DNA of 64,000 bases from assembly GCA_029582155.1 (NCBI GenBank), contig CM055901.1:26493404-26557403 (forward strand), written 5' to 3'. Below are positions 18,048-53,174 of the stretch, one piece after another. The DNA is from Panopea generosa. Taxonomy: Eukaryota; Mollusca; Bivalvia; Adapedonta; Hiatellidae. The first letter of the stretch is position 1. Every line of letters begins with the position of its first letter. The notes beneath the pieces are model-generated. The model was not told the DNA's origin. It ran no database searches and worked only from the letters and a program-made list of their open reading frames with translations. The position numbers and the translations under genes are program-made.

Positions 18048-18371
18048 TTATGCAAAATAATACATTTCATTTTGTCTTTTGAAACTTTGAAAAATAAACA
18101 TGGTAAGGTTTTTAATAATTTTACTTTTTTTGTAGTTAACTATTCTATGAAATTTGGAATATTTGATCTTTTCCAATAATATTTTTATATGCAATTCTCT
18201 GAGATCATGATAAAGTGAATATTCTAATAAAAAATGAAATTCGTCTTCTAATGAGTTACAAAGTTGACAGTTTCGTTCAGGCACAGGCGTTTTCTCTGGT
18301 TTGTGCCATCTACCAGTTTCTATTTCGATAATTGTATCTAGATACGTTTTAAAACTAAAATCTGCGAACAA
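18048..18371 (-). pseudogene. LINE C-terminal fragment
   Basis: A 107-codon frame contains ETGRWHKPEKTPVPERNC followed by CNSLEDEFHFLLE. This is the Cys/His-containing tail commonly found after the RT of invertebrate LINEs. Sequence between here and 19100 still shows LINE-type residues but is frameshifted. Confidence 0.75.
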
Positions 18372-19933: not shown

Positions 19934-20399
19934 AATTCACCCAATAATTCAAAAGCCTTCTATATAAGGTGTCCAAAGGCGTCTAAATTAGAGGTGTCCA
20001 AAAGCGTCTATATGTAGTAAAGGGTTAAATAACTAATGAAATAATTGATACCATATTTAAAAAAAACAATAAAATAAAATTAATACCAAATCTGGTATCC
20101 TGACCTATTAAGACTCTATTCCTTGCATACTTTATTAATTTCAATACATGTAATCGTGCTGTCTAGTTCTTTAAACATTATTTAAATTTCATTATTTAAT
20201 TATTTTTCATTAAAAAATAAAATTTCTTCATCTGGTTGGAAAAAACTCAGATTGTGGGTTGTTAACAGCTTTAAAATACTCGGCAAAATAAGACGCATTT
20301 AGGGACTATTTAGTGTACGCAAACCTTTTAACATTTTCCAATATACTCTTTTGCGTTTTTGTAACGCATATCTTCTAGTTTTTTTAGATTGACACTTAT

Positions 20400-21560
20400 T
20401 ATAATCACTCTTTTTAATTCTTAAAATTTTCTTATAACAACTTCTTGCTTTTACAAATTTACATCTATTTTCCTCGCTGTTATCCTTCCTATACTTTGTT
20501 AAAAGGTCATAAAACCCATTTTGTTTCTCTTAGCACTTTCGATCGAACCACGGTTGCGATTTTGAGTCTGCATTTTGAATTAAACTTATTTTTATCACTT
20601 TTAACCTTATGTTTAAATAGATTGCCATAATTTTCGTCAAATATTGATAAAAACTATTCACATTATAATCATTGTCACAATCAGAAATGTGTTCGTTTTT
20701 AAATCATTTTCTATATTCAACAATTCATTTTTGAAATTAGCTGTATCGATAATTTCTTGAAAAATTGATGCTTTATTATTATCCCATTATTTATTATAAG
20801 AATCTTTGATGCGCTCGAGATCTTCGGAGTGTTCACTTATTATACTTGATTCTTGTCCACAAGTGAATGAAATAGCCAAAGGATCTGAGAAAATATTAGG
20901 GTCATCTACTTTGAACAATTTAAATTATTCATCAAATGTGTACGATATGATACACAGTCAACTACACACACTGCATCCGTTATGTGTAATACACATAAAT
21001 TTGCCCAACCCTTTATCATCTCATATTTTCCCATTTAAAATTTGTAGTTCTGTTGCCTTGCAAAATTTAATAAATAATTACCATTTTTATTTACGTTTTT
21101 ATCTTAAGATGTACTATTTAAAGGTATATCTTCGACGTAATCATCAGGTAATAAGTTTGAATTTATCAAATATTCGTTTTCAGCATAGTCTACATTTGAC
21201 CCAGTTCTAGAATTCATGTCCCCTGTTATCACAAAATTACGCATATTGTTATTTATTTATTTTCAAAATAAAATTTATCATCTGAAATTAAGTCATAAAT
21301 ATTTTGTTGCATATACACTTCCCTGTTACTATTGCTCGGGATATTATAGCAAAGACATAATAATAGTGGATCCTTCAAACCAAATATATTTCCATTTAGT
21401 TTAAGTCATATCACACAGTCATCAACAGATTTTCAATAATACATCATCAGTTATAAAACGATTGGAAACATAAATCACTAAGCCACCACTGTCTCTTCGA
21501 GCAGTTTTGAGTTTTAATTGTCTATGTAGTACGAAACCGGTGAAACCTTCCACTTCTAAA
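20400..21560 (-). pseudogene. LINE endonuclease (EEP type), heavily frameshifted
   Basis: Minus-strand translation shows scattered endonuclease motifs, clearest at about 21199-21240 (FVITGDMNSRTG) and about 21480-21510 (ARRDSGGLVIYVSNR). Many stops and frame changes occur between the motifs. The stretch 20400-20800 is the linker to the RT and is poorly preserved. Confidence 0.7.
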
Positions 21561-21569
21561 CTTTGCTTC

Positions 21570-22677
21570 TCATTTGTCCATGTTCTCATCGATCACGTGT
21601 TCGTTGTTTACACTTGTGTGGTGGGCGTTACCCATTGTTGTGACACAGTTTTCGGTGATTCGCATTGCCTGTTGTGTTACACTGAAAACCGATTCATCTA
21701 TTGCCCTGGTATTAATATGGTCATCAACAACCGTATTGCATGAATATTTACTTTGATTGTCATCCTTGTGGTTGACATTCCTGACAGCAGTTAATGACTT
21801 TTCATTGTTGTAACTGATTTCATTGCAGTTAATCCATGCATTGTGCGCGACTTGGCCGTTTTCCTCGTCGATTTCGAAATCTTCAACTCTGCTTTCACAC
21901 AGTACCTTAAACCAATCTGGAAATAAGTCGTTTACTTGCTTTCCATCAATAAAGAGCTTTGACGGATCCTTTATTTGTACTTTAATACGTTTCGAACGCG
22001 AGTCCTTTGCTGTTTGAGAAGTACAGAGTTGTTTTTTCGGGGCATCAGCTATTTCCTTCGGACAATCGCGATCAGTGCCAAAAGGTGTTCCCTTCAACAT
22101 TAATGCATTTCCCATATTATGTTTTCCGTATCTATGTAGTCTCTAAAACGAACTATAATGGGACGTTTAGGGTCGCTCCTGGCCCTATTGACGTTGTTGT
22201 GTGCTGACCCGAGTCGGTGTGCACGCTCGATACATATTTCTGTTGTGTCAATATCTAACTCGTACCTCAAAAAGTTATAAATAATTTGTTTACAATCACG
22301 CCCTGTTTTCTCCGTAGTACCACAAAATATCATATTGTTTCTCCTGCTTCTCGCTTCCGGATCTATGGATTTATATGATAGTATATCAACTTGCGTGTGT
22401 GCGTATCAATAAACTTTTCTGTTCGATCCACCCACTTGTTTACAATGAAAATACGCTCTTGTGTTGTTTGTATCTCTGATAAACATTTCTTCAGTTTTTT
22501 TTCTATAGAGTTTATTTAATCATAGTTTCTGTTTAAACTAGAAAATAGGCATGTTAAAAATTGTTCAGATTGTGATAATCGGGAAAAACACTCACGGTTC
22601 ATACTTTCTGTTCTGAATTTTTTTCGTTTCCCGCGCGGTCCTTTTACCACCCAGCCGTTACCCCTTCCCATCTTCAA
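21570..22677 (-). pseudogene. LINE ORF1 (RNA-binding-type protein), broken
   Basis: Three minus-strand frames lie in sequence. One starts at 22677 (MGRGNGWVVKGPRGKRKK). One at 22333-22100 holds ERAHRLGSAH and RPIIVRFRDYIDTENI. One at 22115-21570 is a basic then acidic tail including SKLFIDGKQVNDLFPDWF. The ERAHRLG and RPIIVRF motifs are typical of L1-type ORF1 RRM domains. The frames overlap out of register, so the gene is broken. Confidence 0.7.
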
Positions 22678-33500: not shown

Positions 33501-34649
33501 GACGTGGTTATCAACCAAGTTCCAAATGCAAAGGTTGAAGATATAATCAACCATGGCGACACCGTGACAAAACCACTCTGCAAAGATGTACTCGGACCAG
33601 TCCAACTTCATGATATGATGCAGCAATCGTTATTATCATTAATGGTCCAGTCTAAATTCCTTGAACGCAATATCGAGACGGCCCTTTCAAGATACAAAAC
33701 CGCTCCGGAAACAGGGATTAGCCCGTCGACGCTGAGAAAGTTGTGTTTGCAGGGGTCGCAAGTATCGACGCAACCACAAAAGAGCAGATCTACCAGCGAC
33801 TCATTGTACCAACACAAAGATGATAACACACAAATCGGTATGGCTGGCGTCAGCAGTATTCGACCAAATACAACTGGAGATCAACTTAATGTTCGAGCAA
33901 ACCAGAATGTAAGTGAGATTCATTATCACGAGCCATTGCCCAGAGAGAGCTCATTAGAAAGTGATCTTCTCGGTGACACAGGTTCCTTGTCAGCTTATTA
34001 CGGTGATAACGAATCAGGCAATGAAGACGATGATACACGAGATGCAACGAAGAAGAACAAGTCTCGCTCGAGATCAAAACGACACAAGACAGATGGAACC
34101 ATGTCAAAAGCGATGTACGCGGGGTTAAGCGATTTAGCAGCTAAGCGAGTGAAAGTTCCGTTTTTAAAGGAAATGGCTTACACAGTTTTTGATGAAAAGA
34201 AAGGATGTAGTGATCCTTCTCGTCGACTTGAGCTTGTTTATCGTCGGAATCGGGGAGCGGATGGTTTAAACAGGTCTCACAGAGAGAAACTCGTCATAGC
34301 AACTGCCCTCATAGATACGCTTTCAAGGAATAACAATCACCCAGGCAATATAGACGAAGGAGAACCCAAAAATCAATCGAAAGTGCCCGTCGTAACAAAC
34401 AAGTTGTCTTCAGATGATACATCTGCTGATGGCATATTCAGATTTGTAGGCGCAGATGTGAAGAAGTCGGACACCAAAACACGCCCACTGTCTACACTGA
34501 CAGAAAAGAAGACTGTGGTGATAAAAAAGAGAAAGGATTATGTACTCGTGCCGATTGGCGGCACGTTTGGTACCGCTGGCTCTGCAAAGATCAACACGAA
34601 ATGGACAGATGTGGCATCCATTATCAATCAGGGAACATACGAACATAGG
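33501..34649 (+). CDS. PKG-like pseudokinase gene, large N-terminal exon
   Basis: The acceptor ttacattttcag precedes a phase-0 frame of 383 codons starting DVVINQVPNAKVEDI. The donor is AGG/GTTGGT at 34650; reading on reaches TAA at 34662-34664, but the phase-0 exon at 35315 fits the donor. The N-terminal half is helical (VQLHDMMQQSLLSLMVQSKF) and then polar and probably disordered. A basic cluster KKNKSRSRSKRHK near residues 184-196 could be a nuclear signal. A second structured part reads FLKEMAYTVFDEKKG. Near the end VPIGGTFGTAGSAKI loosely resembles a protein kinase glycine loop. No cyclic-nucleotide-binding domain was seen. The upstream exon or exons are not identified. Confidence 0.82.
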
Positions 34650-35314
34650 GTTGGTAGATATTAAACATATTTTGAATAATGATTTTGAAAAAAAATGATG
34701 TAACTCATCAATGCGTTTGCTGTATGATAAGCGCCCTCAATCATCTCATGAGGATAGATACAAATGCATTGATTTGTTTTATCATTGTGATCAAATTGTG
34801 ATTTAAATAGTTTATATAGAATATCTTACATGAGTGTTAAGTTAAAGACTACACGGAATATGTTAAACGTCCATACACTATGAGCTAGTGTGTGTCACGT
34901 GACAAGTAAGTGTACCCAGAAGTGTTTCAGGTAATTCTTGTTCGTTACAAGTACGGTCATATCTCATATACGATATACTTGTAAATAAGATGTTGAATCC
35001 GAAAGTTTAATTTGATAAACGGAACATCAAAAATCACATCTCGTGTACACTATTTGTTATCAAAAACGTTAAAACGTATGAAAGATTTAACCGCACAATC
35101 AATTTCGACAAGGGTGGTTTTATCTAATACACGGAAGTAAAAATGAACCCTCATTGGTATGCTTCCGTGGAAAATGAACGACACATATTCTATATTTAGG
35201 TTAATTGAAGGAATTATGCCACCCATGCAAGTACGTATATTACTCACCTGCAAACGTCAATCACATGGTAAATGATTAATTTCTCCTTCTTATTCCTATA
35301 TTATATATTTATAG
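34650..35314. other. Intron 1 of the pseudokinase gene, no feature
   Basis: AT-rich, non-repetitive. It ends in the acceptor ttatatatttatag. Confidence 0.5.
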
Positions 35315-35370
35315 AACTTGAATTCCCAACAAAGAGCCAGGGTTGATCCCCACAAGACGTTAGATACTGG
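35315..35370 (+). CDS. Pseudokinase gene, short exon 2
   Basis: 56 bp, phase 0 start, reading NLNSQQRARVDPHKTLDT plus GG, with a consensus GTAAGC donor. The GG joins the A at 36032 to make Gly. It precedes the beta-2/beta-3 region and may contribute a degenerate glycine loop (TLDTG-M) in which only one glycine survives. Support comes from both splice sites and phase. Confidence 0.72.
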
Positions 35371-35593
35371 GTAAGCGAATGTTGATTTATAACTTGGCCA
35401 CTCATTTGTTGCTGATCTTCACTAAAATATTTGATGGAACGTTTAATATCATTCTGATTTTATATGACAACTGTTTTTAATTCTGAAGTTTTATATCACG
35501 ACTCTATGAAGCGTTATCTGTAAATAACGTATTATATAAATAAGTATTCCTGTATTTGCTGCACATGCGTTAACCGTCTTTGTTTATATATGT

Positions 35594-35848
35594 GCCATTC
35601 CCGGTTAACTCAGACGGTAGCGCGTCTGACTATCCTTCAAGGGGTCGAATTCCCGCCCGATACTGTGTCCGTGATAATTGATTTACGACATTGCGTTGCA
35701 TTAACATTCATCTCTCACCGCTGATTCAAGTGTGAAAGTATCATTCACTTGCGAAGATGGGTATGGTCGAGTACTAATTAACCTTTCATGATCCCAGGAA
35801 ATATTGTTGAGGTTAACTGATCCTATGTTAGCCCTCGACGGCTTAAAG
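35594..35848 (+). mobile_element. tRNA-derived SINE, family 1
   Basis: The A-box-like part is CTCAGACGGTAGCGCGTCTG. The body is TGATAATTGATTTACGAC, TCTCTCACCGCTGATTCAAG, CGAGTACTAATTAACC and CCCAGGAAATA. It ends GTTAGCCCTCGACGGC without the usual tail. It lies in the intron between the exons at 35315 and 36032, in gene orientation. Confidence 0.82.
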
Positions 35849-36031
35849 TGTTTGGCAAGGGTTGATTTGTCCAAAATATGTGCAGAAATGACTGCCAGTA
35901 TCATAAAAAAATCGCCACCGGTGAGTAATCTATCATCTAAATATACAATAATATTGTCTAAAATAAAACTTTTTCTTATGTCATATGTATAAAGTGATTT
36001 TATGTCGTTTGATTTAACGTTCTGTTTGTAG

Positions 36032-36133
36032 AATGGTAACATACGTGATGTCCAGGCTGAAACTTTATGCCGTTAAGCCAATAAAGAAACAAATGACCAG
36101 TCTGAAGCATTTGCTAGCCGTCAACGCTGAAAG
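36032..36133 (+). CDS. Pseudokinase gene exon 3: beta-3 Lys and alpha-C Glu
   Basis: 102 bp between the acceptor tgtttgtag and a GTCAGT donor. It encodes MVTYVMSRLKLYAVKPIKKQ and then MTSLKHLLAVNAE. YAVKPIKK aligns with the VAIK strand of AGC kinases (Lys codon AAG 36075-36077, residue 417 counted from 33501), and NAE gives the alpha-C glutamate (GAA 36129-36131, residue 435). The N-lobe salt-bridge residues are therefore kept. The terminal AG joins C at 37071 as Ser. Confidence 0.85.
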
Positions 36134-36684
36134 GTCAGTACACTCGCAGTTTGACGTAAAACTCTTAAATACTGATATTCAAATAAACCAGTAACAAATA
36201 CGTTACAGTAAAATGGGATGCTTGTACAATGCAGTGATTGCATTGTATTTAGTCCTTAAGTCAGGATGCAGTACTTCTTCATCTGATAAATATTTAGGCA
36301 CTTTGACAGAGTTGATTCAAACCCAGCCTTGAACTGATCTACTACTCTGTTTCAATCACTTGACTGGTGGAGGTAATTAAGTCATCCTTTAAAACACAGT
36401 GCATAGTTTTGGAGTTGCTTAAATGCCAGAATTAAAATGAATAATCATTCAAACAATATAAATGTTGATGCTTGGTAAACGTACCAATGAATAAGAGTCA
36501 GGATCGTAAACCGTAGGAACGATCCATAACCAATGGGAAGTGGCGTATCCTTCACCAAACCAATATAGCTGTATATGCTCATACTGCGGTTGTGTCCATT
36601 GATGCCACGTCTGCTTTGGTTGTATATTTTCTCATCTTTCACATCCATGTACAAAGCGTCGCTTAACTGGAAATCAGACTGCAG
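36134..36684. other. Intron 3, first part; no exon found
   Basis: Searched for an exon supplying kinase strands beta-4/beta-5, the hinge and alpha-D, which would have to enter and leave in phase 2. Every candidate acceptor led to an early stop. Confidence 0.45.
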
Positions 36685-36955
36685 CGAGGTCTAGTGGTAG
36701 AGCGTCCGCCTTGCATGCGGAAGGTCGTGGGTTCGATCCCCACACTGGGTCATACCAAAGACTTTAAAAATGGTACTAGAAGCTTCCTCGCTTGACGCTC
36801 AACATTTAGAGGAGAGTTCTAAGTCTGGTTAGCCCGGTGTCAGTATAATGTGACTGGGTGGGGTATCATACCATGTGTCTGTGGCATGATACTCGAGCGT
36901 GACAGCGCTCACAATACTGTCGCGATATGACTGAACAAATTGTTGAAAGCGACAC

Positions 36956-37042
<87 letters not shown>

Positions 37043-37043
37043 G
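36685..37043 (+). mobile_element. tRNA-derived SINE with (CAA)n tail, family 2
   Basis: The head resembles tRNA-Ala: GTCTAGTGGTAGAGC (A box), an anticodon-like stem-loop CCGCCTTGCATGCGG, and GTGGGTTCGATCCCCAC (perfect T arm). The acceptor stem does not pair, so this is not a tRNA gene. The body has TGACTGGGTGGGGTATCATA and GTGTCTGTGGCATGATACTC, followed by a long (CAA)n run. The layout matches SINEs known from bivalves (Meta-type); that attribution is from memory. Confidence 0.8.
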
Positions 37044-37070
37044 TAAATTAATTCATATTTTCACTCACAG

Positions 37071-37212
37071 CCGTATATTTGCTGAGACGCACGCCAAGTT
37101 TGTATGCGTGAACCTGATGATGGCGCTACGCTTCCTGCACGAGCACGATATCATGCACGGGTCGATCTCTCCCAAGAAGATTTTGTTTACAGAGAAAGGA
37201 TATCCGTACTTG
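37071..37212 (+). CDS. Pseudokinase gene exon 4: alpha-E and catalytic loop (HGS)
   Basis: 142 bp, acceptor ttttcactcacag, donor GTAAGA. The first C completes Ser, then RIFAETHAKFVCVNLMMALR (alpha-E) and FLHEHDIMHGSISPKKILF. Aligned to HRDLKPEN of PKG, Arg is Gly (37159-37161), the catalytic Asp is Ser (37162-37164), and Asn is Lys (37177-37179). It ends TEKGYPYL in phase 0. The loss of the proton-accepting Asp and metal-binding Asn predicts no phosphotransfer. Other exons keep the frame, so this looks like a pseudokinase rather than a random dead copy. Confidence 0.88.
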
Positions 37213-37844
37213 GTAAGATATATATTTATACAGCATTCACAATGAATAGACGACAACTTGCCAACCCTGACAACAAATTAAATTATGCTGTTCATTATAA
37301 GCTGCCTGAACACCCGAACTGCGGTGAAGGTTACTTTTATGCGAGTCTTTACGTCTATTTCTTAAAGCGTACATAATAAATTAGATAAATACTTATGGTA
37401 CTCTATTGTTTCTGTCTCTCTCTGCTTCTGCTTTTGACTCTGTTACTGCTTTAGTCTCCTGCTTCTTTCGCTGCTGCTGTTTTTGCTAATGTTGCTGTTG
37501 CTACGGTTTCTCCATCTTCTACTACTACTTCCACTGCTACTGCCCTAGATTTTGCTGCTTTTTTTAATATTTCTGCGACCGCTACTAGTCTGTTTCTGTA
37601 ACTGATTCAGCATTCACTTTGACCATTACCTTAACTTATACTGCTACTTATCCAGCGATTGTTACGGGTGAGGCATACCACTTCTGAGTTTGTCGATGCT
37701 GCGTCTACATCTTCTTCTATCACTACTACTACTGTAATTGACTTGGCTACTGCTATTGATACCAATGTTATATTTTTTGCTGGTGATCTTGTTTTTGTTG
37801 TTTGAATTTACATGACTAGTAATATTTACATAAAAAACGTGTGA
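37213..37844. other. Intron 4, first part
   Basis: Includes a degenerate trinucleotide-like stretch at about 37410-37810 (TGCTGCTGTTTTTGCTAATG and CTACTACTACTG). No exon or element. Confidence 0.45.
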
Positions 37845-38895
37845 TTATCGAATATTGCAAAATACGCTTATAACATTTATATAAAGTATATCATAGTAAA
37901 AATGCGTGATCATCGCATATTGCCGAATACGCAAGTAATATTTTACATTAAGTTTCCCATAATAAAAACGCGTGATTATCGTAAAATGCCGAATACGCCA
38001 GTAATATTTACATTTAATTTCCCATAGTAAAACGTGTGATTATCGCATATTGCCAAATACGCCAGTAGTATTTACATTAAGTTTCCCATAATAAAACGTG
38101 TGATTATCGCATATTGCCAAATACGCCAGTAATATTTACATTAAGTTTCCCATAGTAAAACGTGTGATTATCGCATATTGCCAAATACGCCAGTAATATT
38201 TACATTAAGTTTCCCATAGTAAAACGTGTGATTATCGCATATTGCCGAATACGCCAGTAATATTTACATTCAGTTTCCCATAGGAAAACGCGAGATTATC
38301 GCATATTGCCAAATACGCAAGTAATATTTGCATTCAGTTTCCCATAGTTAAACGTGTGATTATCGCATATTGCCAAATATGCCAGTAATATTTACATTAA
38401 GTTTCCCATAGCATATTGCCAAATACGCCAGTAATATTTACATTAAGTTTCCCATAGTAAAACGTGTGATTATCGCATATTGCCAAATATGCTAGTTACA
38501 TTTTCATTAAGTTTCCCATAGTAAATCACGTGGTTATCGCATAATGTCAAATACACTAGCAATATTTACATTAAGTTTAGCCTGACCCGATTAGCTCAGT
38601 CGGTAAATCTAGGGGTTGTGAGTTCGAATCCTCGCCCGGCAACAGTCTCCATGATGATTGATATACGATAGTGTGTCTCATTGATATGCGTCTCTCATCG
38701 CTGATTCAAGTGGGAAAGTTATCAGTTACTTGCAGTGACGAGGTGTGCTCGAGTACTGGTTTACCTTTCATGATCCTAGGAAACAGCGGATAGGTTAACT
38801 GACCGTCTAGTCCATCAATTAAACATTAAGTTTCTCATATTAAAACGTGTGATTGTCGCATATTGCTAAATACGCCAGTAATATTTACATTAAAT
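37845..38895. repeat. 64-bp minisatellite, interrupted by a SINE
   Basis: About 11 units share ACGTGTGATTATCGCATATT, then GCCAAATACGCCAGTAATAT and TTACATTAAGTTTCCCATA. The array stops at 38579, where a SINE begins, and resumes at about 38820 for one more unit that runs up to the exon acceptor region. Confidence 0.92.
38580..38820 (+). mobile_element. tRNA-derived SINE, family 1, with target-site duplication
   Basis: The head CCGATTAGCTCAGTCGG and GAGTTCGAATCC are good A and B boxes, although part of the tRNA-like head is deleted. The body matches family 1. It is flanked by ACATTAAGTTT at 38569-38579 and again at about 38824-38834, which is the expected target duplication inside the 64-bp array. 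Confidence 0.88.
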
Positions 38896-38942
38896 TTCCC
38901 GTAAAAGTGCATGGTAAAACTGGCACTTTCTGTTATATCCAG

Positions 38943-39106
38943 ACTGGGTTCGGAGCAGCGTGTATTATTGATGAGCGCATGAGCCGCCCACGAGAGATGT
39001 GGCCACTGGAATACAGCAGCCCAGAACAGTTGTACCAGGCCTACCTTACCGAAGTCACTGACGTCTTCTCTGTAGGGGCTCTTGTGTATGCCATGATCTA
39101 TGGAAG
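38943..39106 (+). CDS. Pseudokinase gene exon 5: DFG (GFG) to alpha-F
   Basis: The acceptor tctgttatatccag is strong. 54 codons plus AG follow, with a GTTAGT donor. It starts TGFGAACIIDERMSRP, so the DFG aspartate is Gly (38946-38948, residue 485). The activation segment has PLEYSSPEQL, where SPE stands for APE, then TDVFSVGALVYAMIYG, which keeps the alpha-F Asp and the W/F-S-x-G pattern. The activation segment lacks the Thr found in PKG. The upstream start in the same frame (38853) would read through repeat sequence and mismatches the phase, so it was not used. Confidence 0.87.
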
Positions 39107-39634
39107 GTTAGTACAAACATTAAATGTTAAATTACGTACCAAATACACGGCTGTTGATTGGTTAGGGATTATAAGGATGTTCAGTGAAGCGAATTAAAGG
39201 GTGGGGGACAGAGGGGATACGATTTTCTTTGTAAATGATGTTGGAAAAACTAAGGGTGTTCCTTTAGTAGCCGGTATTCAAAAGAGAACAAAAATTGCAT
39301 GCATACTGTGTAAGATACTGATACTAAATGTGTAGATATATGAAAAGATTATCTTATGTTTATTACAGTAACCTTTTTCTTATATATGATTGTTAATAAA
39401 AAACGGATCACATACGAGTTCTAGTATTATTTATCCACATTTTTTTGTATCTGGAATATGTTCTAGTGTTGTACTTAAATACAGTTTGATATCTGATAAC
39501 TACGGGTTGAACGCCGTTTCAATAATGCAAGCGGTTTGAAGTTATAACCAAGCAATGACATATGTACACTATCCACTTGAACTGGTTTTGAAGAAAAATG
39601 TTTACCTTTTTTGTGAGAGAATGAGATTTGAAAA
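39107..39634. other. Intron 5, first part, no feature
   Basis: AT-rich, unique. Precedes the long 30-bp array. Confidence 0.45.
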
Positions 39635-42600
39635 TTCTAACATCTACCACAGCTACTGCCACGACTCTAACATCTACCACAGCTACAGCCACGACTCTAA
39701 CATCTGCCACAGCTACTGCCACGGCTCTAACATCTACCACAGCTACTGCCCCAACCCTAACATCTACTATAACTACTGCCGCGGCACTAACATCTACCAC
39801 AGCTACTGCCACGGCTCTAAAATATACCACAACTACTGCCACGGCTCTAACATCTACCACAGCTATTGCCGCGACTCTAACATCTACCACAACTACTGTC
39901 GCGGATCTAAAACCTACCACAACTACTGCCGCTGCTATAACATCTACCACAACTACTGCCGCGGCTCTAACATCTACCGAAACCACTGCCACGACTCTAA
40001 CACCTACCAAAACTACTGCCGCGGCTATAACATCTACCACAACTACTGCCGCGGCTCTAACATCTACCAAAACATTGCCACGACTCTTACACCTACCAAA
40101 ACTACTGCCACGGCTCTAACTAATACCACAACTACTGCCACGGCTCTAACATCTACCACAACTACTGCCACGGCTCTAACATCTACCACAACTACTGCCA
40201 CGACTCTAACATCTACCACAACTACTGTCGCGGATCTAACATCTACCACAACTACAGCAGCGACACTAACATCTACCACAACTACTGCCTCGGCTCTAAC
40301 ATATACCACAACTACTGCCACGGCTCTAACATCTACCACAACTACTGCCACGGCTCTAACATCTACCACAACTACTGCCACGGCTCTAACATCTACCACA
40401 ACTACAGCAGCGACACTAACATCTACCACAGCTACTGCCACGGCTCTAACATATACCACAACTACTGCCACGGCTCTAACATCTACCACAACTACTGCCA
40501 CGGCTCTAACATCTACCACAACTACTGCCACGGCTCTAACATCTACCACAACTAAAGCCACGGCTCTAACATCTACCACAACTACAGCAGCGACACTAAC
40601 ATCTACCACAGCTACTGCCACGGCTCTAACATATACCACAACTACTGCCACGGCTCTAACATCTACCACAGCTATTGCCGCGACTCTAACATCTACCACA
40701 ACTACTGTCGCGGAACTAAAACCTACAACAACTACTGCCGCTGCTATAACATCTACCACAACTACTGCCGCGGCTCTAACATCTACCAAAACTACTGCCA
40801 CGACTCTAACACCTACCAAAACTACGGCCGCGGCTATAACATCTACCACAACTACTGCCGCGGCTCTAACATCTACCAAAACATTGCCACGACTCTAACA
40901 CCTACCAAAACTACTGCCACGGCTCTAACTAATACCACAACTACTGCCACGGCTCTAACATCTACCACAGCTACTGCCCCAACCCTAACATCTACTATAA
41001 CTACTGCCGCGGCACTAACATCTACCACAGCTACTGCCACGGCTCTAAAATATACCACAACTACTGCCACGGCTCTAACATCTACCACAGCTATTGCCGC
41101 GACTCTAACATCTACCACAACTACTGTCGCGGATCTAAAACCTACCACAACTACTGCCGCTGCTATAACATCTACCACAACTACTGCCGCGGCTCTAACA
41201 TCTACCGAAACCACTGCCACGACTCTAACACCTACCAAAACTACTGCCGCGGCTATAACATCTACCAAAACATTGCCACGACTCTAACACCTACCAAAAC
41301 TACTGCCACGGCTCTAACTAATACCACAACTACTGCCACGGCTCTAACATCTACCACAACTACTGCCACGGCTCTAACATCTACCACAACTACTGCCACG
41401 ACTCTAACATCTACCACAACTACTGTCGCGGATCTAACATCTACCACAACTACAGCAGCGACACTAACATCTACCACAACTACTGCCACGGCTCTAACAT
41501 ATACCACAACTACTGCCACGGCTCTAACATCTACCACAACTACTGCCAAGGCTCTAACATCTACCACAACTACTGCCACGGCTCTAACATCTACCACAAC
41601 TACAGCAGCGACACTAACATCTACCACAGCTACTGCCACGGCTCTAACATATACCACAACTACTGCCACGGCTCTAACATCTACCACAACTACTGCCACG
41701 GCTCTAACATCTACCACAACTACTGCCACGGCTCTAACATCTACCACAACTAAAGCCACGGCTCTAACATCTACCACAACTACAGCAGCGACACTAACAT
41801 CTACCACAGCTACTGCAACGGCTCTAACATATACCACAACTACTGCCACGGCTCTAACATCTACCACAGCTATTGCCGCGACTCTAACATCTACCACAAC
41901 TACTGTCGCGGAACTAAAACCTACAACAACTACTGCCGCTGCTATAACATCTACCACAACTACTGCCGCGGCTCTAACATCTACCAAAACCACTGCCACG
42001 ACTCTAACACCTACCAAAACTACTGCCGCGGCTATAACATCTACCACAACTACTGCCGCGGCTCTAACATCTACCAAAACATTGCCACGACTCTAACACC
42101 TACCAAAACTACTGCCACGGCTCTAACTAATACCACAACTACTGCCACGGCTCTAACATCTACCACAACTACTGCCACGGCTCTAACATCTACCACAACT
42201 ACTGCCACGACTCTTAACATCAACCACAACTACTGCCACGGCTCTAACATCTACCACAACTACTGCCACGACTCTTAACATCACCCACAACTACTGCCGC
42301 GAATCTAACATCTACCAAAACTACTGCCACGACTCTAACATCTACTACAACTACTGCCACGGCTCTAACATCTACCACAACAACTGCAACGGCTCTAACA
42401 TCTACGACAACTACTGCCACGACTCTAACATCTTACACAACTACTGCGACGACTCTAACATCTACGACAACTACTGACGCGGATCTAACATCTACCACAA
42501 CTACAGCAGCGACACTAACATCTACCAAACTACTGCCACGGCTCTAACATCTACCACAGCTACTGCCACGACTCTAACATCTACCACAGCTACTGCCGCG

Positions 42601-45600
42601 GATCTTATATCTACCAAAACTACTGCCACGGATCTAACATGTACCAAAACTACTGCCGCGGATCTAACATCTACCACAACTACTGCCGCGAATCTAACAT
42701 CTACCAAAACTACTGCCATGGCTCTAACATCTACCATAATTACTGCTGCGGCTCTAACATCTATCAGAACTACTGCCACGGATCTAACATTTACCAGAAC
42801 TACTGCCGCGGATCTAACATCTACCAAAACTACTGCCATGGCTCTAACATCTACCATAACTACTGTTGCGGCTCTAACATCTACCACAACTACTGCCGCG
42901 GATCTAACATCTACCAAAACTACTGCCACGGATCTAACATCCACTACAACTACTGCCGCAGATCTAACATCTACCAAAACTACTGCCGCGACTCTAACAT
43001 CTACCACAACTACTGCCACGACTCTAACATCTACCACAACTATTGCCGCGGCTCTTAAATCTACTCAAATACTGCCACTGCTCTAACATCTACCACAACT
43101 ACTGCCACGTCTCTAACATCTACCACAAATACTGCCACGGATCTGACATCTACCACAACTACTGCCGCGGATATAACATCTACCAAAACTACGGCCACGA
43201 CTCTAACATCTACCACAACTACTGCCGCGGATATAACATCTACCAAAACTACTGCTACGACTCTAACTACTTCCAAAACTACTGCCGCGGATCTAACATC
43301 TACCAAAACTACTGCCACGTCTCTAACATCTACCATAGCTACTGCCACGACTCTTACATCTACCACAGCTACTGCCACGACTCTAACATCTACTACAACT
43401 ACTGCCATGACTCTAACATCTACCACAACTACTGCCACGACTCTAACATCTACCAAAACTACTGCCACGGCTCTAACATATACACAAGTACTGCCGCTGC
43501 TCTAACATCTACCATATCTACTGACATTATTCTAACATCTACCAAAACTACTGCTGGGACTCTAACATCTACCACAGCTACTGCCGCGACTCTAACATCT
43601 ACCACAACTACTGCCACGACTCTAACATCTACCACAACTACTGCCACGACTCTAACATCTACCAAAACTACTGCCACGGCTCTAACATCTACCACAACTA
43701 CTGCCACGACTCTAACATCTACCAAAACTATTGCCGCGGCTCTAACATCTATACAAGTACTGCCGCTGCTCTAACATCTACCATATCTACTGCCATGATT
43801 CTAACATCTACCAAAACTACTGCCACGACTCTAACATCTACCACAGCTACTGCCGTGACTCTAACATCTACCACAACTACTGCCACGGCTCTAACATCTA
43901 CCACAACTACTGCAACGACTCTAACATCTACCAAAACTACAGCCACGACTCTAACATCTACCACAACTACTGCCACGACTCTAACATCTACCAAAACTAC
44001 TGCCGGGACTCTAACATCTACCACAGCTACTGCCGCGACTCTAACATCTACCACAACTACTGCCACGACTCTAACATCTACCACAATTACTGGCACGACT
44101 CTAACATCTACCAAAACTACTGCAACGGCTCTAACATCTACCACAACTACTGCCACGACTCTAACATCTACCATAACTACTGCCGCGGCTCTAACATCTA
44201 CACAAGTACTGCCGCTGCTCTAACATCTACCATATCTACTGCCATGATTCTAACATCTACCAAAACTACTGCCACGGCTCTAACATCTACCACAACTACT
44301 GCCACGATTCTAACATCTACCAAAACTACTGCCACGGCTCTAACATCTACCACAGCTACTGCCGGGACTCTAACATCTACCACAGCTACAGCCGGGACTC
44401 TAACATCTACCACAGCTACTGCCGCGACTCTAACATCTACCACAGCTACTGCCGCGACTCTAACATCTACCACAACTACTGCCGCGACTCTAACATCTAC
44501 CAAAACTACTGCCACGGCTCTAACATCTACCACAACTACTGCCACGACTCTAACATCTACCACAATTACTGCCACGACTCTAACATCTACCAAAACTACT
44601 GCCACGGCTCTAACATCTACCACAACTACTGCCACGACTCTAACATCTACCATAACTACTGCCACGACTCTAACATCTACCAAAACTACTGCCACGGCTC
44701 TTACATCTACCACAGCTACTGCCGGGACTCTAACATCTACCACAGCTACTCCCGGGACTCTTACATCTACCACAGCTACTGCCGCGACTCTAACCTGTAC
44801 CACAGCTACTGCCGCGACTATAACATCTACCACAGCTACTGCCGCGACTCTAACATCTACCAAAACTACAGCCGCGACTCTAACATCTACCACAACTACT
44901 GCCAAGACTCTAACATCTACCACAGCTACTGCCGCGACTCTAACATCTACCACAACTACTGCCGCGACTCTAACATCTACCACAACTACTGCCGCGACTC
45001 TAACATCTACCAAAACTACTGCCACGGCTCTAACATCTACCACAACTACTGCCACGACTCTAACATCTACCATAACTACTGCCGCGGCTGTAACATCTAC
45101 ACAAGTACTGCCGCTGCTCTAACATTTACCATATCTACTGCCATGATTCTAACATCTACCAAAACTACTGCCACGGCTCTAACATCTACCACAACAACTG
45201 CCACGATTCTAACATCTACCAAAACTACTGCCACGGCTCTAACATCTATCACAGCTACTGCCGGCACTCTAACATCTACCACAGCTACAGCCGGGACTCT
45301 AACATCTACCACCGCTACTGCCGCGACTCTAACATCTACCACAGCTACTGCCGCGACTCTAACATTTACCACAACTACTGCCACGAATCTAACATCTACC
45401 AAAACTACTGCCACGGCTCTAACATCTACCACAACTACTTCCACGACTCTAACATCTACCACAATTACTGCCACGACTCTAACATCTACCAAAACTACTG
45501 CCACGGCTCTAACATCTACCACAACTACTGCCACGACTCTAACATCTACCATAACTACTGCCGCGGCTCTATCATCTACACAAGTACTGCCGCTGCTCTA

Positions 45601-47975
45601 ACATCTACCATATCTACTGCCATGATTCTAACATCTACCAAAACTACTGCCGGGACTCTAACATCTACCACAGCTACTGCCGCGACTCTAACATCTACCA
45701 CAGCTACTGCCGCGACTCTAACATCTACCACAGCTACTGCCGCGACTCTAACATCTACCAAAACTACTGCCACGGCTCTAACATCTACCACAACTACTGC
45801 CACGACTCTAACATCTACCAAAACTACTGCCACGGCTCTAACATCTACCACAGCTACTGCCGGGACTCTAACATCTACTACAGCTACTGCCGGGACTCTA
45901 ACATCTACCACAGCTACTGCCGCGACTCTAACATCTACCACAACTACTGCCACGACTCTAACATCTACCAAAACTACTGCCACGGCTCTAACATCTACCA
46001 CAACTACTGCCACGACTCTAACATCTACCAAAACTATTGCCGCGGCTCTAACATCTACACAAGTACTGCCGCTGCTCTAACATCTACCATATCTACTGCC
46101 ATGATTCTAACATCTACCAAAACTACTGCCGGGATTTAACATCTTCCACAGCTACTGCCGCGACTCTTACATCTACCACAACTACTGCCACGGCTCTAAC
46201 ATCTACCACAACTACTGCCACGACTCTAACATCTACCATAACTACTGCCGCGGCTCTAACATCTACACAAGTACTGCCGCTGCTCTAACATCTACCATAT
46301 CTACTGCCATGATTCTAACATCTACCAAAACTACTGCTGGGACTCCAACATCTACCAAAACTAATGCCGGGACTCTTACATCTACCACAGCTACTGCCGC
46401 GACTCTAACATCTACCACAACTACTGCCACGACTCTAACATCTACCACAATTACTGCCACGACTCTAACATCTACCAAAACTACTGCCACGGCTATTACA
46501 TCTACCAAAACTACTGCCACGACTCTTACATCTACCACAACTACTGCCACGGCTCTATCATCTACCACAACTACTGCCACGACTCTAACATCTACCAAAA
46601 CTATTGCCACGGCTTTAACATCTACAATAACTACTGCCGCGGCTCTAACATCTACACAAGTACTGCCGCTGCTCTAACATCTACCATATCTACTGCCATG
46701 ATTCTAACATCTACCAAAACTACTGCCGGGACTCTAACATCTACCACAGCTACTGCCGCGACTCTAACATCTACCACAACTACTGCCACGACTCTAACAT
46801 CTACCAAAACTACTGCCACGGCTCTAACATCTACCACAACTACTGCCACGACTCTAACATCTACCAAAACTACTGCCACGGCTCTTACATCTACCACAGC
46901 TACTTCCGGGACTCTAACATCTACCACAGCTACTCCCGGGACTCTTACATCTACCACAGCTACTGCCGCGACTCTAACATCTACCACAGCTACTGCCGCG
47001 ACTCTAACATCTACCACAACTACTGCCACGACTCTAACATCTACCAAAACTACTGCCATGGCTTTATCATCTACCACAACTACTGCCACGACTCTAACAT
47101 CTACCAAAACTATTGCCGCGGCTCTAACATATACACAAGTACTGCCGCTGCTCTAACATCTACAATATCTACTGCCATGATTCTAACATCTACCAAAACT
47201 ACTGCCGGGACTCTAACATCTACCACAGCTACTGCCGCGACTCTTACATCTACCACAACTACTGCCACGGCTCTAACATCTACCACAACTACTGCCACGA
47301 CTCTAACATCTACCAAAACTACAGCCACGACTCTAACATCTACCACAACTACTACCACGACTCTAACATCTACCACAATTACTGCCACGACTCTAACATC
47401 TACCAAAACTACTGCCACGGCTCTAACATCTACCACAACTACTGCCACGACTCTAACATCTACACAAGTACTGCCGCTGCTCTAACATCTACCATAACTA
47501 CTGCCATGATTCTAACATCTACCAAAACTACTGCCGGGACTCTAACATCTACCACAGCTACTGCCGCGACTCTAACATCTACCACAACTACTGCCGCGAC
47601 TCTTACATCTACCAAAACTACTGCCACGACTCTAACATCTACCAAAACTACTGCCACGACTCTAACATCTACCACAACTACTGCCACGGCTCTAGCATCT
47701 ACCACAACTACTGCCACGACTCTAACATCTACCAAAACTACAGCCACGACTCTAACATCTTCCACAACTACTGCCGCAGCTCTAACATCTACACAAATTC
47801 TGCCGCAGCTTTAACATCTACCATAACTACTACCATGATTCTAACATCTACCAAAACTACTGCCGCGGCTCTAACATCTACACAACTACTGCCGCGGATC
47901 TAACATCTACCATAACTACTGCCATGATTCTAACATCTACACAACTACTGCCATGACTCTCACATTTACCACAAG
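39635..47975. repeat. 8.3-kb array of 30-bp units (intronic)
   Basis: Roughly 275 units of ACTCTAACATCTACCACAAC followed by TACTGCCACG and variants. There is higher-order structure. A block of about 1.2 kb is repeated (starting near 40072 and 41270, both followed by CCTACCAAAACTACTGCCAC). From 43470 an anchor CACAAGTACTGCCGCTGCTC recurs at about 279-890 bp intervals. The Thr/Ser/Ala-rich plus frame and Val/Asp-rich minus frame stay open for up to 447 and 291 codons. Each anchor unit is short and shifts the frame into a stop, so I do not annotate a mucin-like gene. Confidence 0.95.
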
Positions 47976-48342
47976 TGCATCTCTGTATTACGTTAAATGA
48001 CCATCTTTTAAGTGTTCTACTCTCTTAGTCTGTGAAAAAAGAACTTGCTTGTAGACTGGAAAAATCAGAATTTTTTTTGCCATTTGGGTTGGCTACAAGT
48101 TCTATATAAAAAGTGTAGCCTTGTGTTTGTTTATATATGCATGTAGTATAGAGTTCATTTAAGTTGTAAATGTAATTCAGCACTGAGTTATACTACTGCA
48201 AGTTTCGTTTCAATATTTATCCATACGTGACTATAGGTAAAACAGTGGTCTGGAGTACTATTTTGCCCTGACATTGGTTTTAAAGGCATGTGAAGCAATT
48301 TATCTATCAATAGTTGATATTACAAACAATGTATAATTTTAG
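47976..48342. other. Intron 5, last part, no feature
   Basis: AT-rich unique sequence ending in the acceptor gtataattttag. Confidence 0.45.
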
Positions 48343-48468
48343 TCCACCACACAAAGGTGAGGACCCGGCATCAACACGGAGAAATATTCTTGACTACCAG
48401 TTTGTGCCGCCATTCGAACCGGAAAACATCACAGCTGCAGGAAAGAAATTCATTCTGAAGTGTATCAG
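48343..48468 (+). CDS. Pseudokinase gene exon 6: alpha-G to alpha-H
   Basis: 126 bp. The first T completes Ser of the G-S-P-P motif (YG/SPPHKGEDP), matching GSPPF-G-DP of PKG. It then reads NILDYQFVPPFEPENITAAG and KKFILKCI, ending AG before GTTAGT. This is the substrate-lobe region of AGC kinases. The nine visible residues around SPP are the closest match to PKG in the whole gene. Confidence 0.87.
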
Positions 48469-49116
48469 GTTAGTCTCCTGCAGAGTCACCGAGAACACTT
48501 GCGTTTACGTGTTTCTATCTACGAGTATATGTTAACATGGTTAGTCTCCTGCAAAGTCATCGAGAACACCTGCGTAAACGAGTTTTTATATAAGAGTATA
48601 TGCTAACCTGATCAGTTATGTGTTTTACACCGAACCTATGTCACGGTGCATGCTGACGTATCTGCAGGTGAATCGTCTGTCGGGACTACTTCTATTTACT
48701 TCTCAATCTCCTTCGCAGAGTTGTCGTTCGTTACACTCATTCACCTCTGCAACAGGCTAAATGTCGGAATTTTTTTTACGAAACTTCCTAATTACAGTTT
48801 ATGTAGTTGTAAGCATATTGTTAAAACCAGACAACAAATCTAGAACAAAACATCACTTTTACATTAGAACAAAAACAATAAAGCAGCTTTTACATGAATA
48901 AATGAACTTTTTTTCTAGTTTTTTTAACGCAGAGCGATTTCCCGATTAATACGCATTTGAAAAAAATGGCAGTGATCACGTGACTGGAAGTCGAAAGTAG
49001 TCCGCAGTCAATGACAGAGGGGAATGTAATTAGTCGAGTGTGTTAGAGAATGTACTCCTATGTCGTCATATGATGTGGCAACAAGGGGGGAGGAACACGA
49101 TTGGGTGCACCCATTA
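48469..49116. other. Intron 6, first part with a duplicated donor region
   Basis: A 71-bp direct repeat begins at the donor itself: GTTAGTCTCCTGCAGAGTCA at 48469 and GTTAGTCTCCTGCAAAGTCA at 48540. The rest (48640-49116) has no gene; an open frame at 48646-48843 is not supported. Confidence 0.55.
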
Positions 49117-49335
49117 ACATGTGTAGGGCGCGTGGCCTAACAGTAGAACATCGGACCAAGGATCGGGTTTGGTGGGTTCGATCCTCCGCCACGGCTATGT
49201 GTGGTGTCCTTGAGCAAGACACTTTTTCAGCATATGCTTAGTACTGGTTCTAACCAGGAAGACATCGAACCTGATTTGTCTAAATTGTAAGAACTTGTTT
49301 CATTATCATGGTAAAAATAAAGTAAAATAATATCT
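49117..49335 (+). mobile_element. tRNA-derived SINE, family 3
   Basis: The head has GCGTGGCCTAACAGTAGAAC and the B box GGTTCGATCC. The body has GTGTCCTTGAGCAAGACACT, a motif shared by many animal SINEs. The 3' end is AT-rich (GGTAAAAATAAAGTAAAATA). Confidence 0.7.
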
Positions 49336-49849
49336 GATAAGGCTTAAGTTCTTCAATGAAAGTAGAAAATCTAAAGTCCTGACGATTTTTATATGTTTAT
49401 TGAATGTCTATTTTGATAAGAACATTAACGATATATGATCAATTCCATCAATTTTCATTTAATGATTTTCTGTTTATTTTAGTATTAATTTTTACGCTTT
49501 GAGATATTCATAATGTTTGTAATCTAATACCCAGTTGTTTAACTCGCGAACGTACAAAAGAAAACTCATTGACGTACACTTTTGTCAAAAGCCATCAAAG
49601 TACAATGTATAATCAGAGTGCTCTAAATGTTCACTTTATGTAGGCTATATATCGATCTCAATGACATAAAATACTTTATTATGATTTTACTTTAATATTA
49701 GCAGAATCGCCATTAACACGTTTTATTTTACTATCAGAAATTATACATGGCAATCACTTTGATTGTTGGAGGAAGACCTCAGACACGTGCTGATCACTCT
49801 GGGTAAAACCATTGATCTCCACATGTAACGTGCAACGGCAAAGTAGTGG

Positions 49850-50095
49850 TCCAGCGTTAAAAGGCATTTGACTGGGTACCCAGGGATTGCGAGTTCGATC
49901 CCCAGCTCCTCCAATTAAAAAATACTAGTCGGTCTTTCGGATGGGACTTTAACAAAAATCGAGGTCCCATGTACCGGTGCTTAACACCGGGCATATATCT
50001 CTGCACTTTCCTCCAGAACTCTAAAATTACTAATACTCTTCGGGAGGCGTCACTGGAGGCGACGATAAATAGCATTATCATCATCATCAGTAACT
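49850..50095 (+). mobile_element. tRNA-derived SINE, family 4, with (ATC)n tail
   Basis: The B box is GAGTTCGATCCCC. The body is GGTCTTTCGGATGGGACTTT, AATCGAGGTCCCATGTACCG and CGGGAGGCGTCACTGGAGGC, with tail TTATCATCATCATC. An antisense open frame of 76 codons across it is incidental. Confidence 0.75.
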
Positions 50096-50158
50096 GACAA
50101 ACAGTTAGTCTTAAATTTAATTTGGTCGAGCAGGGCTTGAACCAAGGAACTCAGCTTT

Positions 50159-50159
<1 letters not shown>

Positions 50160-50219
<60 letters not shown>

Positions 50220-50282
50220 GGGGAGGGAGGGAGGGAGGGAGAGAGAGAGAGAAAGAGAAAGAGAAAGAGAAAGAGAGAGATG
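50160..50282. repeat. (AG)n/(GGGA)n microsatellite
   Basis: Long AG run, a GGGAGGGAGGGAGGGA core, then AGAGAAAGAGAAAG. Confidence 0.97.
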
Positions 50283-50434
50283 TAATATTGTGAAAGCGTT
50301 TTAGATCGCTCGGTCATGGTTGACCCAAGAATTAAATGCATATTTTAAAAAAAAAATAATATTCGTTTGAAATGATTTAATTATTGTCATAGATTTAAAT
50401 AATTCCAAATACTTTGTTTGATTTATATTGACAG

Positions 50435-50497
50435 AAAAAATGAAAGGAGGCGATTCAGTATCCTAGATCAGAAGAAAGGTTTATTCGACTCTGTTCC
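50435..50497 (+). CDS. Pseudokinase gene exon 7 (63 bp)
   Basis: The acceptor ttatattgacag precedes A completing Arg, then KNERRRFSILDQKKGLFDSV plus CC before a consensus GTAAGT donor. It corresponds to the N-P-x-x-R-L-G segment before the W-F of PKG. The LG is replaced (RRFSILD). Confidence 0.82.
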
Positions 50498-50624
50498 GTA
50501 AGTAGTCAGTGTACATTAAAAAGTTTAATATGTAGACTTAATTGTATCGAGAAAAAACACGTTTATCATAAGACAAAAAAATGAGAAGAACATCAAATCG
50601 TCAAATTAATAAATTTACTTAATT

Positions 50625-50862
50625 TAGGCTATATTAAATTAATTGCTAGATTATCAATCCCGCCCGCCTCCTAATTTTCATGCCGCCCGGACCTGTTTGA
50701 TTTTTTTTTGATCTTATCTTTTTTCTTTTTCTTTTATTATTAAAAAAAAATCAACAAATTTAAAAATAAAAATAAAAAAATAAAAAATACTCCTGCCCTC
50801 CCCGTTTTTAAGGCAAATTTGGATGATAATCTGGCAATTAATTTATAATGGCCTTGGCAAAT
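50625..50862. mobile_element. Foldback (MITE-like) element, copy 2
   Basis: Related to 462-686 but in the other orientation. Both ends carry AAATTAATTGC or its complement (TTAAATTAATTGCTAGATTA left; CTGGCAATTAATTTATAATG right), with CCCGCCCGCC next to the left end and an A/T-rich centre. Confidence 0.6.
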
Positions 50863-52150
50863 AATAGTGGCATAAGACAGAAACAAATGTACGATGTTAA
50901 TAAGCTAGCATAAATAGTATTACACGATGTCTTCTGTTAGTTATTTTTCCATATGTTAGTTTATATCCTGCCGAAGACCCAGACAGCCGAAACGTTGACA
51001 TATTACAGTAACTAAACTAAAATATACATGCTGGTGCTTTTTAAACTTCTTGATAGAAATAGTTCAACACTTCTGCAGATCTAACGATTACACTTGTGTT
51101 TTGTGACATTAATATAATACACCGAAATATGTGAATTGCATTTGAATAAACTGATGTAAATCAATAAATTAATATGAACATTTCATTGAATTCTGAATGT
51201 GAGAAATATATATTTCCTTCATACAAAGCAGATATCACAACTACATTCGGAACACCTCGCTCAATTCTCAAAAGGTGCGAGCAGTGCCCGAGGAGCTCGC
51301 TCCCAATGATCACAACTAGTGAACATTTGATATCACCACTGTTAATTTGAATACAGGCCAGGCAATAGCCAATAGAGTTACGCCTTATATTTTCAGAACC
51401 ATGTGTCATCTTCACTATTTTAGAAACTAATCATGTGTTGTTAATTTTTCGGTCAGCGTTGCATTATTGGAGAAAAACATAATTATGTTATTTTTATGCA
51501 AAACACACATGCAAATTAAACGTGGTTTCGATCTGTGAATTAGCATCTTTTTCATGTTTCACTGATTTTGCTTCGTATACCGTGTGTAGTTTAGAACTTT
51601 ACAGTAAAGTTGAAATTAAAAAACATCTTTCTAATAAAGAAATAATTGAAGTATAAAATGCTCAATTAGAACATTCCAGTGCTGTATAGATTTATTAATG
51701 TCTCTCTTGAAATCCAACATCCTACACACATCTTACACTCTAATGTCACCATGTTTTGATTATTTGTTTCAACTCAATGTTTTTATCAACGATGTATAGT
51801 AACCGTTTCTCATTGTCATAGCTACTTTCCCTGAAGGTCCTTTACTACGAAACTGATAATAATTCTTTTTAAAACATCGTCCAAAATAGTTACTAGTTGT
51901 TGTTGATCAGTAATTTCAGTTCAGTTTTCGTTTTGATCTTACCGACACTCATAACCATCAAGAATGGCTGACGTTGCTTCAAAAAATGCACGGAACGTTG
52001 TTGTTTTGTGTCCTAGTTTAGTTTAAACATATTTTATATTTCATATATACATTGAAATGCGGTCAGGCCACAAATTCTAACACTACACTTTTGTAAAATA
52101 TATGTGCAATTGTTTACAAGTTAACACAATGTAAAATTTTAATATTTTAA
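50863..52150. other. Intron 7, middle, no firm feature
   Basis: Contains a short motif CCTGCCGAAGACCCAGACAG then CCGAAACGTTGAC near 50968-51000 that resembles retroelement 3' ends. The antisense 84-codon frame at 51161-51415 is unsupported. Confidence 0.4.
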
Positions 52151-52151
52151 A

Positions 52152-52163
52152 GATGAGAGAGAA

Positions 52164-52212
<49 letters not shown>

Positions 52213-52236
52213 AGAAGAGAGAAGAGAGAGAGAGAG
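52152..52236. repeat. (GA)n microsatellite
   Basis: GAGAGAGAAAGAGAGAGA and similar for about 85 bp. Confidence 0.96.
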
Positions 52237-52299
52237 TACAGATCACCATTTATTTAAATGTATATTCATATCAAACATTTATGCTATATTTCATACTAA

Positions 52300-52938
52300 C
52301 AGCAGCCATAGTAACACCAATAGAAGTAACACTTGCACTAGTAACACTTGCAATAGTAACATTTGCAATAGTAACACTTGCAATAGTAACACTTGCAATA
52401 GTAGTATTTGCAATATTAACACTTGCAATAGTAACATTTGCAATAGTAACATTTGCTATAGTAACATTTGCAATAGTAACACTTGTAAAAGTAATACTTG
52501 CAATGGTCACATTTTCAATATTAACACTTGCAATAGTAACATTTACAATAGAAACATTTGCAATAGTAACACCTGCAATGGTAACACTTGCATTAGTAAC
52601 ATTTTCAATAGCAACACTTTCAATAGTAACATTTACAATAGTAACACTTACAAAAGTAACATTTGCAATAGCGACACTTGCAATAATAACACTTGCAATA
52701 GTTACAACATTAATAGTAACATTTGCAATAGTAACACCTGCAATAGTTACACTTGCAGTAGTAACATTTGCAATAGTAATATTGCAATAGTAACACTTGC
52801 AATAGCAACATTTGCAATACTAACACCTCCAATAATAACACTTGCAAAAATACCATTTGCAATAGTAACACTTCTTGCAATAGAAACTCTTGCAATAGTA
52901 ACACTTACAACTTGCAATAGTAACACTTGTGTTAGCAA
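52300..52938. repeat. 15-bp minisatellite next to the last exon
   Basis: About 42 units of GTAACACTTGCAATA with TTTGCAATA variants. It ends about 40 bp before the acceptor of the terminal exon. Open frames on both strands are artefacts of the 15-bp period. Confidence 0.94.
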
Positions 52939-52977
52939 CGGATGCATAAATGACGTTTTTTTTCAATTATGTTACAG

Positions 52978-53077
52978 ATGGTTTGCCGGCCTGAACGAAG
53001 ATCGACTATACAGACAGCTAATTGCATCTCCAATGATCGGCTCAATAAAGAAATATTCACCAAAATCAGAACATTAA
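52978..53077 (+). CDS. Pseudokinase gene terminal exon 8
   Basis: The acceptor attatgttacag precedes A completing Pro, then WFAGLNEDRLYRQLIASPMI and GSIKKYSPKSEH, with TAA at 53075-53077. It matches the W-F-x-G-x-N/D-W-x-x-L...PPI segment of PKG, but it stops soon after and lacks the AGC hydrophobic-motif tail. The total from 33501 is 633 codons. Confidence 0.88.
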
Positions 53078-53111: not shown

Positions 53112-53174
53112 AATAAATCGATAAACAATTATTTATGTATACTAATTTTTATAAATTATTATTTTTCAAATAAA
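53112..53174 (+). other. Polyadenylation signals of the pseudokinase gene
   Basis: AATAAA at 53112-53117 and at 53169-53174, 35 and 92 bases after the stop. A short 3' UTR is likely. Confidence 0.6.

Follow-up and report, generated by a model that had tools for sequence, protein, structure and literature searches.

A putative AGC-related pseudokinase gene with altered catalytic motifs in the bivalve Panopea generosa

Exon Organization of the Locus

The DNA analyzed here is a 64,000-nucleotide window from Panopea generosa (contig C8, CM055901.1, positions 26493404–26557403), and its forward strand carries, at 33501–53077, a candidate kinase-like gene. We lean, with modest confidence, toward a gene that is present in one copy and encodes an AGC-related pseudokinase (similar to PKA, PKG, and S6K), a putative binding protein. 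Eight in-phase exons on the + strand, with AG/GT borders at all seven introns, join into 633 codons followed by TAA. This exon set had been proposed in a first-pass annotation of the same sequence; upon rejoining the exons, the 633 codons and every splice dinucleotide were reproduced, and all of the motifs quoted in that annotation were present in the translation.

Exon 1 (33501–34649, + strand, as are all the features of the gene) starts at an acceptor and contributes 383 codons, rich in serine and with acidic and basic low-complexity stretches. It is followed in phase by a 56-nt exon (35315–35370), the weakest link of the chain, and by an exon with a β3-like YAVKPIKK and an αC-like NAE (36032–36133), in which an ATG lies one base after the exon start. 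The next intron (36134–37070, 937 bp) occupies the position at which an exon for β4, β5, the hinge, and αD would be expected. The exon at 37071–37212, placed by Pfam and Protein Data Bank (PDB) alignments and by a comparison of conserved columns, encodes αE and a ruined catalytic loop, HGSISPKK. TGFG in place of DFG, the activation segment, SPE in place of APE, and DVFSVG of αF are found in the exon at 38943–39106. Most of one intron is then taken up by an 8.3-kb minisatellite (39636–47974; 30-bp unit, ∼279 copies). Pfam and PDB alignments place the αG-αH exon (PPHKGEDP) at 48343–48468, and the joined translation and a PDB alignment place the αH-αI exon, with ERRRF, at 50435–50497. The last coding exon (52978–53077) reads WFAGLNEDRLYRQLIASPMIGS..., ends with TAA at 53075–53077, and has no AGC C-terminal tail (C-tail). 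An AATAAA at 53112–53117 lies 35 nt past the final stop, but it belongs to an AT-rich stretch of 323 bases in which AATAAA or ATTAAA occurs five times in all. Besides the minisatellite, many further long tandem arrays are present in the window.

The splice sites, described as good in the first-pass annotation, are so only in part: all dinucleotides are intact, but on rough scoring tables the donors of exon 1 (AGG/GTTGGT) and of exon 50435 (TCC/GTAAGT) scored low and the acceptors of exons 35315 and 48343 scored below zero. A kinase-model-free exon-chain script, given codon use and splice-site preferences as its only inputs, joined 30 exons in phase across 154 kb and recovered six of the eight exons (33501, 35315, 36032, 37071, 38943, and 50435). 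It missed the terminal exon and 48343–48468, which has a poor acceptor and in place of which 49127–49171 was chosen. The splice and exon scoring tables were self-made, with codon use drawn from eight kinase loci and from exon 1 itself, so the recovery of exon 1 is partly circular and not independent.

An extra exon at 35798–35920 had the top exon score (14.7) between exon 1 and exon 36032. It was rejected because it is out of frame with the other exons and because its first 50 bases lie within a repeat resembling a short interspersed nuclear element (SINE) at 35589–35847, of which other copies lie nearby. Members of this family were found at 35589–35847, 38576–38808, 10416–10566, and 3776–4031, with 73%–87% identity to each other; the first of these mimics an exon start inside the gene.

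The Kinase C-Lobe and Its Catalytic Residues

In a profile search against kinase families, one of the checks suggested in the first-pass annotation, the joined kinase part (250 aa) matched Pfam PF00069 with 82.7 bits (E = 3.7e-23, cut-off 31.7). The match spans profile positions 83–255 of 263, which is the C-lobe part only. A complete bilobal domain with β1–β5 and hinge was not found, profile positions 1–82 being unmatched and no credible hinge exon being present. In NCBIfam, the kinase part matched generic kinase models alone, far below their cut-offs.

Among PDB entries, phmmer ranked S6K1 first (61.5 bits), followed by SGK1 (58.5), PKG1 (56.8), PKA (56.2), and CaMK1G (55.2). The best similarity is thus to AGC kinases, but narrowly, with CaMK1G close behind. 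Pairwise identity was 29.6% to PKG1, 29.4% to S6K1, 28.9% to PKC-α (over a shorter stretch), and 28.2% to PKA. The special relation to PKG that had been claimed is not borne out by these values, as S6K1 scores 4.7 bits above PKG1 and the identities to PKG1, S6K1, and PKA lie within 1.4 points of each other. When PKG1 was used to query the species' own genome, the highest-identity matches (68%–77%) lay on another contig (C2) and the exons in the window were absent among the 125 scored of 306 candidates; this absence is weak evidence because only those 125 were scored. The turn and hydrophobic motifs of the AGC C-tail are absent, with the stop falling 14 residues past the LIASP segment. Because this tail is lacking, we call the protein AGC-related rather than an AGC kinase.

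The pattern of residues lost and kept is selective. By PKA numbering, Arg165, Asp166, Lys168, Asn171, and Asp184 are replaced, the HRD Asp by Ser and the DFG Asp by Gly, and His158, Phe185, Gly186, Tyr204, Pro207, and Glu208 are kept. Among the 11 columns conserved in ≥85% of 11 active kinases, all five catalytic ones are lost and all six others kept, a split with a random chance of 1 in 462, calculated post hoc. The comparison set comprised three human kinase sequences, entered by hand, and eight loci out of 18 named in the species' own genome. These eight were picked by an open reading frame matching an HRD..N pattern, with the other 10 dropped; the invariance of Arg165, Asp166, and Asn171 and the near-invariance of Lys168 in them are therefore by construction, and the three human kinases agree. 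By eye, the αF Asp and Gly and the αI Arg (equivalent to PKA Arg280) are also kept in the alignments; Thr197 and Thr201 of the activation loop are lost.

A pseudokinase is recognized by loss of the VAIK Lys, the HRD Asp, or the DFG Asp, and here both the HRD Asp and the DFG Asp are gone. The columns confirm that the catalytic Asp, the KPEN Asn, and the DFG Asp are altered, as first annotated. The three altered motifs understate the damage, however, since Arg165, Lys168, the activation-loop Thr, and ∼44 residues upstream of αE are also lost. What survives of the original description as a PKG-like pseudokinase is a kinase-related protein with an intact frame and no canonical catalysis, but not the PKG label.

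The Incomplete N-Lobe

Approximately 44 residues, corresponding to β4, β5, the hinge, and αD, are absent between NAE and RIFAETH, because exon 36032 ends at the αC Glu and exon 37071 begins at αE. The figure is a hand count from the αC Glu of PKA to the start of its αE. It could be asked whether the model is simply incomplete, a hinge exon and a fuller N-lobe having been lost or collapsed in a repeat-rich assembly. The region is indeed rich in repeats, and the gap between exons 36032 and 37071 would suit a phase 2-2 exon of ∼132 nt. The intron is, however, only 937 bp long and free of sequence gaps, and the catalytic loop and DFG would be ruined even with a hinge present; we regard such an error as unlikely. 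The intron contains a SINE-like repeat (∼36684–36883) and an (AAC)n tract (36958–37042). Hinge segments of PKG and PKA scored 29 and 27 against it, compared with a 95% level of 33 for shuffled sequence, and the three phase-compatible candidate exons found in its 937 bp under our own thresholds all scored below zero.

Reading in frame past the donor of exon 36032 gives a weakly kinase-like HSQFDVKLL, then ALYLVLKSG, a reading that is broken by a TAA at 36192–36194 and continues past it. The gain of this read-through over shuffled and genomic controls was slight (p = 0.02–0.09 with two profiles), and whether it may represent remains of the lost segment is undecided. An interrupted remnant of this kind, the absent hinge segment, and the weak scores of two donors and two acceptors would fit a unitary pseudogene in early decay. 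In that case an AGC-related gene would have lost the catalytic residues together with the hinge exon and would no longer be under selection. The open frame of 633 codons with intact splice dinucleotides speaks against early decay, as does the separation of the catalytic losses from the kept structural positions, and we consider this explanation unlikely.

The β3-αC stub itself is less secure than the C-lobe. Exon 36032 alone scored 3.6 bits with an AGC profile built from five kinases and 5.6 bits with a profile built from eight (both scores without a shuffled control), in the right place and order; its alignment gave p = 0.05 against PKG and p = 0.13 against PKA. YAVK-like motifs occur in 0.15% of random 33-residue strings. 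The exon extended by 20 residues of the intron reading had no PDB match at E up to 10, and the matches of exons 36032 and 37071 together were owed mainly to the 37071 part. The VAIK Lys and αC Glu had been reported as retained; this is plausible, but with such weak scores their retention is likely rather than shown. Even with both residues kept, an ATP pocket could hardly form, because β4, β5, and the hinge are missing. Across the junction of exons 35315 and 36032 the translation reads KTLDTG..., which aligned to the glycine-loop segment of PKA with p = 0.08, so a ruined glycine loop may possibly lie here. A second candidate glycine loop, IGGTFG in the tail of exon 1, was unsupported by alignment, and the tail added nothing to the Pfam match.

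Exon 1 and the Upstream Region

The open stretch of exon 1 extends to 398 codons, with a stop 12 nt beyond the weak donor. By the composition of the less repetitive parts of the window, an open stretch of this length is expected ∼5e-10 times per 64 kb by chance, and a chance origin is unlikely both for this stretch and, given its Pfam E value, for the kinase C-lobe. The best Pfam match of exon 1 had E = 0.044, below the cut-off, and neither PDB nor NCBIfam gave a match. AlphaFold, run on exon 1 alone without an alignment, was uninformative (mean predicted local distance difference test score 36). In the first-pass annotation, the large N-terminal region was conjectured to stand in place of cyclic-nucleotide-binding domains. 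Tandem domains of this kind were found neither in exon 1 nor in the few candidate upstream exons, and the gene's 5′ end was not located.

Several well-scored candidate exons lie on the + strand between window coordinates −26232 and 3506, some of them by eye β-propeller-like, followed by helical repeats. Those at about −26.2, −24.2, −10.8, and 3.4 kb had no Pfam match; two upstream candidates joined gave a single PDB row (E = 1.5), and a guess that these exons encode HPS6 found no match, in a search in which the controls were silent too. A separate gene immediately upstream, which might include exon 33501–34649, is suggested.

Such a gene would make two of what is read here as one, with exon 1 belonging upstream and a short kinase-like protein starting at ATG 36033. 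This separate short protein is a serious rival because an in-frame ATG in good context (AGAATGG) stands at the start of exon 36032. The stop of exon 1 just beyond its weak donor and the weakness of exon 35315 fit the division, and a candidate upstream exon at 3383–3506 would exit in the phase required by exon 1. On the other hand, exon 35315, with a score of 5.2 against 2.8 for the next, is the best phase-bridging candidate in 34680–36020, the chain runs in phase through it, and the possible glycine-loop remnant spans its junction with exon 36032. Moreover, no AATAAA or ATTAAA polyadenylation hexamer occurs in the 646 nt past the exon-1 stop. On balance, the division into two genes is doubtful.

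Copy Number and Survival of the Reading Frame

The kinase part and exon 1 were searched against the species' own genome (1.47 Gb, 39 contigs). With an E-value limit of 10, the kinase part had 33 matches (36 of 36 candidates scored), seven of which were its own exons; the best of the other 26 had 28% identity and E = 2.8e-4. The 383-aa exon matched only itself (three of three candidates scored). Because this genome yielded no close second copy of the kinase part or of exon 1, it is unlikely that the gene is a recent spare copy. If indels are assumed to arise 10% as often as substitutions, the probability that frame and splice sites would survive without selection is ∼0.07 after 1% divergence and ∼0.005 after 2%.

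Discussion

The reading toward which we lean, a single-copy gene for an AGC-related pseudokinase, has several points to contend with. β4, β5, the hinge, and αD are gone, yet they are needed by a folded bilobal domain. Exon 1 is joined to the kinase exons solely via the weak 56-nt exon 35315–35370, and a start exon or start codon upstream of exon 1 was looked for and not identified. The exon chain lends only modest support, because many of the script's other 24 exons are plainly false and because 49127–49171 replaced 48343–48468. Finally, decay may possibly have begun recently, under ∼1% divergence ago.

By established kinase chemistry, a protein without the catalytic Asp, Lys, and Asn, the DFG Asp, and the hinge should carry out neither phosphorylation nor the usual binding of ATP. 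With all five residues compared in the catalytic loop and DFG changed, and with part of the nucleotide pocket missing, transfer of phosphate in the known way would be impossible. The C-lobe would still be folded, as the αE His, the DFG Phe and Gly, the Tyr-x-x-Pro-Glu, and, by eye, the αF Asp and Gly and the αI Arg are kept. The loss of residues for chemistry and the retention of positions that hold the fold suggest that the C-lobe may have been retained as a docking surface, with the αF-αG-αH face available to another protein. The long flexible N-terminal region, if part of the same gene, might act as a tether or a second binding site. The fuller version of this proposal, in which a maintained and expressed pseudokinase without β4-β5-hinge-αD docks through its C-lobe and β3-αC stub and has a long novel region fused to them on the N-terminal side, seems rather improbable.

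The likeness to PKA, PKG1, and p70S6K1 lies in the order of the C-lobe from αE to αI, the ending WF..N...L.....P, and 28%–30% identity. In contrast to these kinases, the catalytic Asp, Lys, and Asn, the DFG Asp, and the HRD Arg are replaced, and the activation-loop Thr, the hinge, and the C-tail are absent. RPS6KC1 and RPS6KL1 (RSKL-type) are AGC-related pseudokinases with altered catalytic motifs, a feature in common with the present gene, the likeness being one of description only. Tribbles and STK40 can also be likened by description, Tribbles for a binding-platform role such as that proposed for this C-lobe; unlike the present gene, they are CAMK-related, their N-lobe is complete, and their C-tail serves in docking. 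Such pseudokinases are already known as a kind; within the portions available of the literature matches listed, no account of such a gene was found. As far as the excerpted accounts go, Tribbles serves as a binding platform for substrates (PMC5382568), and the 28 AGC kinases of the oyster kinome are said to cover all metazoan families and subfamilies (PMC4883820). Pseudokinases are examples of enzyme folds reused for binding. If the gene is maintained, it may add to the AGC complement outside the families compared here, and the loss of the hinge would raise the question of how little N-lobe a folded kinase C-lobe needs.

Neighborhood of the Locus

A 6.6-kb segment occurs twice on contig C8 upstream of the window, at 26423454–26430022 and 26459152–26465718 (−69949 to −63381 and −34251 to −27685 in window coordinates). 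The two copies are 99.7% identical and 35.7 kb apart, and may be either a recent duplication or an assembly artifact. Their − strand exons read like those of a GTPase that we take to be of the CobW/ZNG1 type. Within the window, − strand open frames at 18048–22405 resemble a retroelement of the long interspersed nuclear element type and include a YADD motif, which is typical of reverse transcriptase.

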